From NCBI GenBank assembly GCA_002690445.1, contig NZER01000037.1, positions 1 through 8,959 on the forward strand: DNA of 8,959 nt, read 5' to 3'. Both the position numbers and the translations under genes were made by a program. The stretch is from Candidatus Pacearchaeota archaeon. Lineage in GTDB: Archaea; Nanoarchaeota; Nanoarchaeia; Pacearchaeales; GW2011-AR1. The notes beneath the pieces were generated by a model, which saw only the letters and a list, made by a program, of their open reading frames with translations, searched no databases and was not told where the DNA came from. The stretch's first letter is position 1. Each line of letters opens with the position of its first letter. Below are positions 700-6,855 of the stretch, in pieces.

Positions 700-830
700 T
701 GCTGCGCCCAGGATTTGCACCTGGGAATTGTGCCTCGCTCAATAGATTCCTAGGGCGTATTAAAGTGCCTGCACTCAACACCTATAACTTTCTCTTGAGC
801 AATAGCGGCTACCTATTTCGCCACGCAACA
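700..830 (-). ncRNA. tRNA-like structured RNA with an oversized anticodon arm
   Basis: This element fills the gap between two coding regions (stop codon at 837-839, next start at 683 or 644). Read 830 to 700 it folds by eye into a cloverleaf. The acceptor-like stem is TGTTGCGT (830-823) with GCGCAGCA (707-700), 8 pairs with two G-U. A D-arm (GCG 821-819 with CGC 807-805) has a loop with AGGTA. The T-arm is CCCAGG (725-720), loop TGCAAAT (719-713), CCTGGG (712-707); G707 can close either this stem or the acceptor stem. Positions 824-805 closely match the start and D-arm of bacterial tRNA-Leu(CAA), from memory of the E. coli gene. In place of a normal anticodon arm there is a long one: TTGCTCAA (802-795) with TTGAGCGA (742-735), enclosing 52 nt with further small hairpins. 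No CCA is encoded and T55 of the T-loop is G. It could be a tRNA with an insertion, a degenerate tRNA, or a Y-RNA-like or other tRNA mimic. Confidence 0.55.
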
Positions 831-2616: not shown

Positions 2617-2918
2617 TTCGACCTCCCATTCGGAGCAGTCAACTCCACATCTCTCAAGTCCGACCCCACAGGCACCACCTCCAACCCATACCCACAAAAC
2701 GCCCTCTCTCCAAACCTCCTCCACCCTGCCACGTTCTCCTCATTGGCCCCTGCCACTGGCACAAACAACACCTCGCCACTGATATACACTACTTCCTTGC
2801 GACACTCCCAACTAGCGGGTTCTTCGCACTGAGCTATAAGTGACCACGCCATAGTCCCCAGCAAAAACATCAACGCCCCTATCAGAAGAGCATACACCCA
2901 ATCAGCCACGGTACTCAT
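2613..2918 (-). CDS. Single-pass membrane protein, 101 aa
   Basis: Start ATG 2918 lies inside the end of the nuclease gene (17-nt overlap) with an AAGGAAG-type site upstream. An in-frame TTG at 2945 is less likely. Residues about 7-28 (from DWVYALLIGALMFLLG onward) form one clear hydrophobic helix, which could be a membrane anchor or uncleaved signal. The rest is a soluble domain with three cysteines (CEEP, WECRKE, AFCGYG) and beta-rich stretches such as VVYISGEVLFVPVAG. Topology with the C-terminal domain outside the membrane is possible, because cysteines there could form disulfides, but this is inference. No lysis-protein signature (holin pair or spanin lipobox) is seen. Function unknown. 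Confidence 0.65.
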   Translation of the reverse strand: MSTVADWVYALLIGALMFLLGTMAWSLIAQCEEPASWECRKEVVYISGEVLFVPVAGANEENVAGWRRFGERAFCGYGLEVVPVGSDLRDVELTAPNGRSK

Positions 2919-3711
2919 CTCTGTATTCTTCCTTCGCTTCCACAAGGTTGCCTCCTTCTGCCATTATGTCGTGCAGGTTCTTGTAGTCACACCCAAAGCA
3001 ATGTGGCCCTGGCCTCGCAACCCACTTCTCCTTACCCACCTGCTCGAACATCCGCCTCAACTCCACTGTGGTAAACTCGTGCTCCCTATCGGTGTAGAGA
3101 AACGGCCCCTCCCGTTGCGCCTGCTTCGGCGTCAATGCATTAAGATACAACTCCACCGTCCTAACCCCATACACCTCCTTCAACGCCCACGCCTCCAACC
3201 GCAACTGCTGGTGGTAGTGGGTGAGTATGTGCGTCATTGGCAAACTACTCAGACGGGTCTTATGAGACAATATAACCCCAGTACGCCCCTTATTAACCAG
3301 CGCAAATGCATCAGGGATACAGTAGTACGTCTTAAACTCCCCGTCCCAAGGCACTGGAGCCTCAATTACGGTTTCCGTTATCATCCCGTCGAAATCCGTA
3401 TCCCTACCCCAAGTCCTCGAAATCGTGTTAGCCATACCTACCAACTGCTGCCACCGCATCTTGGGGTTCTCCCACTCATCCAACTCCAGCAGGTTAAATG
3501 CCTCCTCAGTAGCCTTCTCCAACAACGGTGCTCCCCTGTCCTTCGCTGCCGCAGAGTAGTGCCTCTGCAACATATGGTGCGCTGCCTTACCCATCTGCTG
3601 CTCGATAGTACCCGCCCCCTGGGGCCTCAACCCCTCGCCATACTTCCACTGCCACTGTAGCTGGCAATTCAACCAGGTGGATACCTCCGACCAACTAAGA
3701 TACGTTCGCAT
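2902..3711 (-). CDS. PD-(D/E)XK nuclease, Cas4/RecB-like, possibly inactive
   Basis: Protein of 269 aa. The start ATG directly follows the TAG of the preceding gene, with GAGGGG upstream. The N-terminal YLSWSEVSTWLNCQLQW (C16) and GKAAHHMLQRHY (H45/H46) match the start and motif I of RecB/Cas4-type exonucleases. IPDAF supplies the motif II Asp (D134). HYHQQLRLEAWAL (165-177) fits the QxxxY helix. The family's (D/E)xK motif reads L-S149-H-K151-T, so Ser replaces the catalytic acid. C238 and C241 (CFGC) resemble the Fe-S cysteines that pair with C16, but the position of the usual fourth Cys appears to be H247. Known relatives are 5'-3' exonucleases or resectases in phage recombination. The fold call is firm; activity is doubtful unless another acid substitutes. 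Confidence 0.75.
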   Translation of the reverse strand: MRTYLSWSEVSTWLNCQLQWQWKYGEGLRPQGAGTIEQQMGKAAHHMLQRHYSAAAKDRGAPLLEKATEEAFNLLELDEWENPKMRWQQLVGMANTISRTWGRDTDFDGMITETVIEAPVPWDGEFKTYYCIPDAFALVNKGRTGVILSHKTRLSSLPMTHILTHYHQQLRLEAWALKEVYGVRTVELYLNALTPKQAQREGPFLYTDREHEFTTVELRRMFEQVGKEKWVARPGPHCFGCDYKNLHDIMAEGGNLVEAKEEYRDEYRG

Positions 3712-5711: not shown

Positions 5712-6698
5712 TCACCCTCCTTGATACCTATATTTCCTCGGCCTACCGTCCCCCTCTTCCAACCACCCCCTATCCACCAACTCTTCCACCGCCTTCTGCA
5801 CCGCACTCACACTCTTACCCAAAACCGTTTTCAAATCCTCCTTAGTATACCACAAACCTGAAACTTTTGTCAAGAGTCGAATTGTGGCTCCCACACTAGT
5901 CAACCCATCCTCCATCAACTCAAACCCCAACGGCCTTGGTTCCACCATTGTCAGCACCAGTGGATTATCCTCTATCAACGTCGGCCTTCTAGGTTTCCAG
6001 CACACCAGCTTATACCCCTTATCTCTCCCCCCAATCCTCCCAAACTGGAACCCATAACTCGCCCACGCCTTCCAGAACGCACTCCCATAAATCTTCTCCC
6101 CAGGTTCCGTATCCACCTTAGCCCCTGTCAACCCATCCCGTGTTGGCCTGCTTTGGTGATGTAGCACAATCGCTGCACTCTTAAACTCGTGTATCACCAA
6201 GTCCACATTATCCGTCCACTCCCCTACCACCTCATCATCCTTCATACTCCCTCTAATAGTCTTGTACACAGGGTCAACTATCAACACTCCCCCATCCAAC
6301 CCTGCCTCCTCACACATCTCCCTCAACGCCTGAAACCCCGCCTTGGTGTTAATCTTTTTCCGCAGGAGAAAATCCACAGTCAACATCCCCTCCGCTGGCC
6401 TCGGCAACCACAGGTGCATATCATGCCCCCGTTGGGCTGTATCCCCCAAGTTCCCCTCACACTGCAAGTACAGTACCTTACGTGGCCTATCCACCTCATA
6501 CCCCACAAACGGTGTCCCCGTAGTCAACGCCAACGCCATCTGCAACGCCAGCATACTCTTCCCGCTACCCTCTGGCCCTTCCACCACGATACTCCCGTTC
6601 TCTGGTAGTATCTGGTCTATGTACCAAGGTGGCGCACGGTAGTCACTGCTCAGTAAGTTGAGCCAGTCCCATGATTCTCCCACATTCCTGCTAATCAC
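5712..6698 (-). CDS. RepA-like RecA-fold helicase ATPase with C-terminal winged helix
   Basis: About 328 aa from GTG 6698, which has GAGGG at a spacing of about eleven. GTG 6683 and GTG 6725 are alternatives. Residues 41-48 GPEGSGKS are Walker A. VLYLQCEGN (75-83) carries the catalytic Glu. GVLIVDPVYK (137-146) is Walker B. IVLHHQSRP (177-185) is the sensor motif typical of RSF1010 RepA/AAA_25 ATPases. GSAFWKAWASYGFQF (205-219) is the expected following helix. A winged helix occupies about 271-326 (LWYTKEDLK, SAVQKAVEELVDRGWLEE). The family comprises hexameric replicative helicases or primase-helicase partners; the winged helix suggests DNA binding at an origin. It overlaps the coiled-coil gene by 8 nt, and a promoter-like element lies inside its 3' part. 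Confidence 0.82.
   Translation of the reverse strand: MISRNVGESWDWLNLLSSDYRAPPWYIDQILPENGSIVVEGPEGSGKSMLALQMALALTTGTPFVGYEVDRPRKVLYLQCEGNLGDTAQRGHDMHLWLPRPAEGMLTVDFLLRKKINTKAGFQALREMCEEAGLDGGVLIVDPVYKTIRGSMKDDEVVGEWTDNVDLVIHEFKSAAIVLHHQSRPTRDGLTGAKVDTEPGEKIYGSAFWKAWASYGFQFGRIGGRDKGYKLVCWKPRRPTLIEDNPLVLTMVEPRPLGFELMEDGLTSVGATIRLLTKVSGLWYTKEDLKTVLGKSVSAVQKAVEELVDRGWLEEGDGRPRKYRYQGG
5844..5873 (-). promoter_or_regulatory. Promoter-like element inside the helicase gene
   Basis: TTGACA (5873-5868), 18-nt spacer, TATACT (5849-5844), with TGTGG before the -10, matching the other promoters of the window. AAGGAGG (5843-5837) follows at once and precedes an in-frame TTG (5834-5832). Transcription would start about at that TTG. 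It could drive the tiny genes downstream (5710 onward to the ERCC4 nuclease), or make a short winged-helix product from helicase codons. Because it lies in coding sequence, chance is not excluded. Confidence 0.55.
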
Positions 6699-6855
6699 CA
6701 GCAGCGATACCCTCAGTACCAACACTGTCCAGGTCGTGTAGCAAGTCCTCCAGGCGTCGCCTCAACAGACGGATTTCAGTGTCTGCAACTGACTCCAACT
6801 CATCCACCGCCTCCACCATGTCCTCCACCATGTCCAACAACTCGTCCATGTTCAT
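6691..6855 (-). CDS. Small acidic coiled-coil protein, 54 aa
   Basis: ATG 6855 is chosen because GAGAGGAG stands six bases upstream. Earlier in-frame starts (ATG 6861, TTG 6879) sit on or before that site. Almost the whole product is one heptad-like helix (MDELLDMVEDMVEAVDELES...RLLRRRLEDLLHDLDSV), strongly acidic first and then with an Arg cluster. It is a likely dimer or a helical partner of another protein. It directly precedes, and overlaps by 8 nt, the RepA-like helicase, so a helicase-associated or regulatory role is possible. That is inferred from position alone. Confidence 0.65.
   Translation of the reverse strand: MNMDELLDMVEDMVEAVDELESVADTEIRLLRRRLEDLLHDLDSVGTEGIAAGD

Follow-up and report, generated by a model that had tools for sequence, protein, structure and literature searches.

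The described systems closest to the RNA reported here are class II tRNAs and several RNAs that resemble tRNA in part. Class II tRNAs such as tRNA-Leu (RF00005) share with it an acceptor stem, a D arm with G18 and G19, a T arm, and T8, A14, A15 and U48, whereas the family described below lacks an anticodon arm, has a 6-bp T stem and G55, and does not encode CCA. The bacterial Y RNA YrlA is, in the available part of its description, a tRNA mimic of similar length with D and T arms, whose 5′ and 3′ ends form a basal stem and which is a substrate of TruB (PMC8394870). In contrast, the modelled ends of the family RNA form a covarying acceptor stem rather than a basal one, U55 (the target of TruB) is replaced, and Ro60 was not found in most of the carriers tested. 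tmRNA (RF00023) also has a tRNA-like end without a normal anticodon arm, but the family RNA is far shorter, carries a D arm of tRNA-Leu type and gave no tmRNA match at the gathering score in 17 loci. The tRNA-like structures of plant viruses such as TYMV, as far as the available part of PMC4810234 describes them, combine elbow mimicry with pseudoknotting elsewhere; they are parts of RNA virus genomes, whereas the family RNA is an intergenic element of DNA phages. Finally, the stable RNAs C and D of phage T4 (139 and 119 nt) are likewise unexplained RNAs beside phage tRNAs. They were considered as relatives and rejected, as the T4 stretch gave no match to the family model at E values up to 1 and the T loop of RNA C is the usual TTC one.

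A tRNA-like RNA between two phage genes

The window, that is, the whole stretch of 8,959 nt that was analysed, comes from a contig assigned to Candidatus Pacearchaeota archaeon and is part of an 11.4-kb virus record. A sequence-only reading had placed a structured tRNA-like non-coding RNA between two phage genes in it, with a closing stem, a D arm and a T arm with a TGCAAAT loop in tRNA order, G at T-loop position 55, and a long arm closed by an 8-bp stem in place of the anticodon arm. All of these parts are present in a 131-nt RNA on the minus strand (read from 830 to 700), on which the neighbouring genes also lie. With the window excluded, a covariance model of 40 phage RNAs independently recovered it as the single match in the window at E values up to 10. 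The features are as follows.

700 to 830, minus: whole tRNA-like RNA (covariance model without the window, 62.7 bits, E 1.1e-14, model positions 1-118 of 118; fold)
824 to 830, minus: acceptor stem, 5′ strand, TGTTGCG (fold and model; covaries in relatives)
805 to 823, minus: T8, G9 and D arm of class II tRNA type, GCG-AAATAGGTAGC-CGC (sequence and model); the D arm of the window RNA reads GTGGCGAAATAGGTAGCCGC
726 to 804, minus: 79-nt middle in place of the anticodon and variable arms (fold and model)
795 to 802, minus: 8-bp helix, 5′ strand, TTGCTCAA, at the start of helix A in the pseudoknot proposed for the family (fold and helix test)
735 to 742, minus: 8-bp helix, 3′ strand, TTGAGCGA (fold and helix test)
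707 to 725, minus: T arm with 6-bp stem, loop TGCAAAT and G at position 55, CCCAGG-TGCAAAT-CCTGGG, preceded by T48 at 726 (fold and model; stem covaries in relatives)
700 to 706, minus: acceptor stem, 3′ strand, CGCAGCA (fold and model; covaries in relatives)
837 to 1370, minus: upstream co-directional ORF without a family match (ORF list and family search)
162 to 683, minus: downstream co-directional ORF without a family match (ORF list and family search)
1385 to 2152, minus: Sak4-like annealing protein gene, context (phrog_124, 4.6e-13)
2902 to 3711, minus: PD-(D/E)XK nuclease gene (family search)
5712 to 6725, minus: AAA_25 ATPase gene (family search)

The RNA begins 6 nt past the stop codon of the upstream ORF and ends 16 nt before the start of the downstream one. 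No minus-strand ORF of at least 50 aa covers 700-830, and two plus-strand ORFs (559-753 and 633-863) overlap the RNA in antisense. The minus-strand fold of 700-830 reaches -46.1 kcal/mol (z -2.26, with 2 of 200 shuffles as good) and that of the plus strand is ordinary (z -0.79); by itself, folding energy is only modest evidence for the RNA. The earlier labels for the neighbourhood, Sak4 and SSB, held in part: the Sak4 assignment was recovered, whereas no family support was found for an SSB at 837-1370.

Standard tools do not see this element. With default scores, ARAGORN called neither the window RNA, with or without introns, nor a tmRNA in the window. When its score limit was lowered to 30%, it gave 23 candidates in the window, none of which was this fold, one being a tRNA-Val with a 2.5-kb intron that ends at 699. 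Permissive scans of the window with Rfam 15 gave no match over the RNA, the one weak snoRNA match lying outside it at 857-877, and no tmRNA match at the gathering score fell on the window copy. BLAST of the window stretch against phages returned only matches of 20-23 nt at E 4, one of which, a statistically weak 20-nt exact match of the D arm, falls inside a tRNA-Ser annotated in a phage.

A large family in phages

The Sak4-like protein and both flanking ORFs retrieved no relatives from viral contigs when used as bait, and homologues were therefore sought by DNA patterns. A starting pattern composed of the D arm, a gap and TGCAAATCC found 12 viral contigs, in all of which the six T pairs are kept, and in 11 of which at least six consecutive acceptor pairs occur with different letters, the twelfth being cut by the contig end. 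A looser pattern, and patterns with longer and with shorter gaps, each gave at least 120 matches. The matches listed number 437 and fall in 429 loci, of which 366 are viral, 57 genomic and 6 phage records; by their middle, 305 of the matches are non-redundant. The 57 stretches from prokaryotic genomes are by title largely from Firmicutes, together with a Bacteroidales, an Alphaproteobacteria and a Methanoperedens MAG, which may be phage contigs or binning errors.

In 21 loci scored with the covariance model, full-length members reached 53-84 bits, a truncated copy in Enterococcus phage phiFL2A 27.9 bits and other matches 33 bits at most, three of which fall on annotated tRNA-Ser or tRNA-Leu. 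Of the loci found with the longer-gap or shorter-gap patterns, 60 were searched with the model as a check, and all 60 matched, at 55.7-85.6 bits. Non-family matches rose to 38.9 bits in eight genomes (about 80-85 nt, taken as tRNAs by their length), and a degenerate copy in Listeria phage P100 (42.2 bits) lies between these and the family, most of which scores at least 53 bits. This copy is located in the P100 tRNA cluster (L236:12404-12544, P100 126403-126543), on the minus strand, with the tRNAs annotated on the plus strand, and its D loop has no GG. Named phages with copies of at least 53 bits are SPP1, the Listeria phage PSA, B054, Enterococcus EFDG1, Leuconostoc vL_291, Weissella PWc, Lacticaseibacillus R24.2, Bacillus KLEB27-1, Grass and Brochothrix BtpYZU01. 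BLAST with the T arm or the D arm gave short, for the most part putative, matches in 43 and 89 phage records, respectively.

In genome surveys at E values of 1e-9 or below, at least 5 of the 200 genomes examined from the class to which a Listeria belongs carried a copy, as did at least 1 of 142 from that of the Alphaproteobacteria MAG and at least 1 of 148 from that of an Oscillospiraceae genome, with the centre genome counted in each case; these counts are lower bounds because 18-25 candidates were scored per genome. The copies of SPP1 and of Grass, a member of Herelleviridae, are 84% similar. A fetched stretch around the SPP1-like scaffold gene of Bacillus phages 000TH010, 279BB001, Ray17 and 049ML001 holds no copy, which together with the SPP1/Grass similarity suggests an accessory and mobile gene. 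Judged by the records in which it occurs, the family is distributed as a mobile element and not as a core bacterial gene. In two contigs tandem copies lie 6 and 11 nt apart (L258:11363-11624 and L268:2385-2686, by the model), and a pair of copies found by pattern occurs at L407:7608-7800.

The family appears to have gone unannotated. At the gathering score, Rfam 15 gave no match over the RNA in 17 loci, and none was obtained in a permissive scan of L038. The Rfam tRNA model (RF00005) covers the SPP1 copy across its whole length at 21.6 bits, which is below its cut-off of 29; that scan left undisplayed one further match, of lower score, from the tRNA/tmRNA clan. ARAGORN, including introns, called none of the 305 non-redundant copies. 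In the annotated stretches examined, no RNA feature was drawn over family copies, and hypothetical proteins were drawn over parts of a few. Within a largely open-access set of journal papers, no description of such an RNA turned up.

Covariation and conserved positions of the tRNA-like core

Covariation was evaluated in 40 sequences without the window, comprising 640 cells, of which 98.8% are paired, with compensatory changes at 10 of the 16 pairs. The covariation score was 0.684, compared to 0.162 for shuffled alignments and at most 0.144 when the pairing was slid. In the 7-bp acceptor stem, six of the seven positions show at least four pair types, and the 6-bp T stem covaries at four of its six positions. 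The D stem is invariant because the search patterns fixed it, and hence contributes no evidence of covariation. Homologues devoid of covarying pairs had been proposed as the outcome that would speak against the RNA; the acceptor and T stems gave the opposite.

All seven acceptor pairs are present in 249 of the 305 copies. Several positions that the patterns left free are also conserved: the sixth T pair in 301 copies, U48 in 303 and A47 in 278. CCA stands exactly at the expected place in a single copy of the 305, and near the end in 4 of 176 copies, compared with 140 of 247 ARAGORN tRNAs of the same loci, which were judged with a wider end window. It is known that CCA can be added after transcription.

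The T loop of the family is UGCRAAU, with U48 before the T arm and G in place of U at position 55, and the UGCAA of this loop agrees with U-[U/G]-N-R-A, the general motif of T loops. Of 151 non-redundant copies, 145 have G at position 55, most of the patterns having fixed that G. A fairer comparison keeps to one narrow D arm and gap, for which at least 109 of 128 loci selected for TGC stand against 10 contigs with another base, six of which score 72-79 bits and look like members. The elbow contacts U8-A14, A15-U48, G19-C56 and U54-A58 are all possible on the conserved bases. Over 19-20 nt, the D arm of the family matches annotated phage tRNA-Leu (E 1-4), and a tRNA-Leu ancestor is likely. At the level of sequence comparison, these data demonstrate that the tRNA elbow and acceptor are conserved without the decoding parts.

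A variable middle and a probable pseudoknot

The middle that replaces the anticodon arm is 37-122 nt long in the 305 copies, within the gap limits set by the patterns, and total length extends from 89 nt in PSA to 204 nt in EFDG1. In the phiFL2A copy (L204:2479-2529, 51 nt, delimited by eye), there is almost no middle and the D arm is shortened, with the TGC loop kept, indicating that the middle is not always needed.

Two helices were evaluated in this region. Helix P, which ends directly before the AT of U48 and most often starts 10-11 nt past the D stem, is significant at p<=0.05 in 118 of 305 copies, with an overall p of 5e-38. Helix A is significant at the same level in 16 of 147 (overall p 3e-4). 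Given P, it is so in 8 of 159, which is about chance, with a significant mean excess (p 5e-4); with shuffled linkers as the control, subsets gave p values of 0.01, 0.002 and 0.01, and one subset gave 0.08 when the targets were shuffled instead. Within subfamilies, double changes in helix A keep pairing in seven cases and break it in none, and single changes keep it in five and break it in 20; slid controls had 0-2 and 0-4 double changes. A joint test of P and A was significant in 49 of 119 sequences (p 2e-21), a result driven mostly by P and biased in favour of the pseudoknot by the omission of 26 of 145 sequences that had no joint solution. Taken together, helix A from the linker and helix P form a probable H-type pseudoknot, for which these pairing statistics give moderate and mixed support. 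The window copy is an outlier of the family in that CAT before the T arm is absent and a clear partner helix is lacking; its 8-bp stem sits where the second helix (helix A) begins and is among the two best-scoring cases of the helix-A test.

Genomic context and neighbouring mini elements

The RNA is mostly located between genes of the same direction. The nearest ORF of at least 100 aa within 1.5 kb is co-directional in 105 of 120 cases upstream and in 91 of 114 downstream, and no conserved promoter or terminator signal shows in a base profile that covers 45 nt on the upstream side and some 40 nt on the downstream side. Neighbour clusters in 147 loci were named solely by reading their representatives. 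They include a terminase large subunit (15 loci, 14 of them downstream of the RNA), an HNH protein (12 of 12 downstream), a terminase small subunit (6 of 6 downstream), an ArpU-like regulator (11 of 11 upstream) and an integrase (8 loci, on both sides); the records' own annotation of phiFL2A and BtpYZU01 gives the same gene order. The SPP1 copy (109 nt, X89721 3423-3531) separates head genes 9 and 11, and some copies, such as that of Grass, are found inside tRNA clusters.

When 7.7 million bases of both strands were scanned for elements 36-61 nt long whose acceptor and T stems are both perfect, 26 distinct anticodon-less mini elements were detected. Of these, 25 lie within 800 nt of the RNA and on its strand, one at 940 nt and none on the opposite strand only, in loci that were chosen for holding the RNA and whose sequence is for the most part farther away. 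A single-base shuffle gave one such element. Their T loops are normal (TTC), as in L023:4118-4176 and L206:2743-2799. Thirteen of them derive from a single sequence as variants, and another three from a second one, which brings the number of independent elements nearer a dozen.

In the four Bacillus phages that lack the RNA at the scaffold gene, pieces with a normal T arm were recognized by eye in the gap before that gene. The strict mini-element scan did not recover the T-arm pieces of scaffold-gene gaps, and the fold of the SPP1 piece is not distinguished from that of shuffled sequences (z -0.62, 45 of 200). SPP1 L202:3104-3190 and the scaffold-gene gaps of L238, L240, L241 and L242 show, besides a T arm of normal type, the conserved hairpin TTTTACC...GGTAAAA. 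The copies of Listeria phage PSA (L203) and B054 (L205) are flanked by similar repeats, with a hairpin-like stretch GGAGACGCATC upstream and GATAYGTTCTGATRGGA downstream.

Possible roles of the RNA

The elbow of tRNA is read by RNase P, RNase Z and the CCA-adding enzyme, according to the available part of PMC4810234. We tentatively favour, at somewhat less than even confidence, the reading that the window RNA is a copy of a large phage family of tRNA-elbow mimics that RNase P and RNase Z would release and that would act in trans as elbow decoys. The RNA would be transcribed within a phage operon and excised by these elbow-reading host enzymes, which would explain its place between co-directional genes without a promoter or terminator in the near flanks. 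Once freed, it might serve as a stable decoy for an elbow-recognising host enzyme or a defence effector. The lack of an anticodon and of an encoded CCA, the free acceptor letters, G55 and the 13-bp acceptor-T stack would keep it out of translation, and the variable middle may adjust how stable the RNA is or which target it chooses. The acceptor-T stack, along which RNase P measures from the elbow (PMC4919913, available part), has 13 bp here and might therefore shift or blunt cutting. The conserved G55 is not obviously needed by a pure decoy, and up to ten contigs have another base there. A wider proposal, which we hold more tentatively still, is that the G55 family and its smaller partners form arrays of anticodon-less mimics that serve phages, those of Firmicutes above all, as accessory trans decoys whose target is set by the pseudoknotted domain.

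The main rival, on the unlikely side in our estimate, is a cis-acting RNA-processing site, at which cutting by RNase P and RNase Z would split the phage operon mRNA in the manner of tRNA punctuation and leave an inert excised RNA. The position between co-directional genes with no conserved signal in the near flanks agrees with it, and the T-arm pieces before the scaffold gene of the four Bacillus phages suit a cis role, as do the mini elements that adjoin the RNA on the same strand and the 51-nt phiFL2A copy, which retains just the acceptor, a short D region and the T arm. However, copies in tRNA clusters have no evident mRNA to split, the D loop, G55 and a structured middle are conserved beyond what RNase P seems to need, and several elements in one gap, or tandem copies of the RNA as in two contigs, would be redundant for cutting. 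The recurrent order of terminase genes, HNH and ArpU-like neighbours around the RNA could instead point to an element that regulates the late operon of temperate phages or serves in packaging. This is improbable, considering that most of the 147 loci have none of these neighbours in the fetched stretch and that copies also occur in head operons, among the replication genes of the window and in tRNA clusters.

The remaining readings concern the identity of the RNA. A tRNA with an insertion, as the sequence-only reading had suggested as one option, or more generally a degenerate or intron-containing phage tRNA-Leu, would account for the D arm and for the subthreshold score of the SPP1 copy with the Rfam tRNA model, but is quite improbable: ARAGORN with introns recovered no copy, the common anticodon arm and an encoded CCA are absent, the acceptor letters vary freely, G55 is nearly uniform, the T stem has 6 bp, and the strong covariation indicates selection rather than decay. 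Slightly less probable again, and disfavoured, is a bacterial Y RNA of the YrlA kind, which links Ro60/Rsr to PNPase. YrlA resembles the family RNA in length and in mimicking tRNA, and in the available part of a paper on a P100-like Listeria phage, an Rsr-like protein is suspected, as are abundant ncRNAs in the vicinity of tRNA genes (PMC12282133). A TROVE/Ro60 gene was found in 1 of 20 and in 0 of 49 carrier records (the two lists share four, many viral records are fragments, and 7 phage records were searched whole). The one positive record is a Bacteroidales MAG contig (L228/L229, G012:C127), in which RNA and gene share a strand and lie about 1.8 kb apart. Since TROVE was found in so few carriers, the Y RNA reading is not supported, and the ends that form an acceptor stem and the replaced U55 also speak against it. 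Chance resemblance, with which the folding energy of the window alone (z -2.26) might have been reconciled, is refuted by the match to the independent model and the covariation in relatives.

A common structured phage RNA, present in the textbook phage SPP1 and bearing no RNA annotation in the records examined, is directly testable, and a covariance model of the family would improve phage annotation under either the decoy or the cis reading. Were the decoy reading true, viral tRNA mimicry would have a counterpart among DNA phages, and the family could help to find defences able to sense the shape of tRNA; were the cis reading true, it would represent tRNA punctuation in phage operons.

Other structured RNAs near family copies

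Two loci also carry a ROOL RNA. In L026, the ROOL RNA at 667-1248 ends 13 nt before the tRNA-like RNA. In L049, it occupies 599-1208, 2.4 kb from the tRNA-like RNA, and the same locus has 19 tRNA matches and a tmRNA match.
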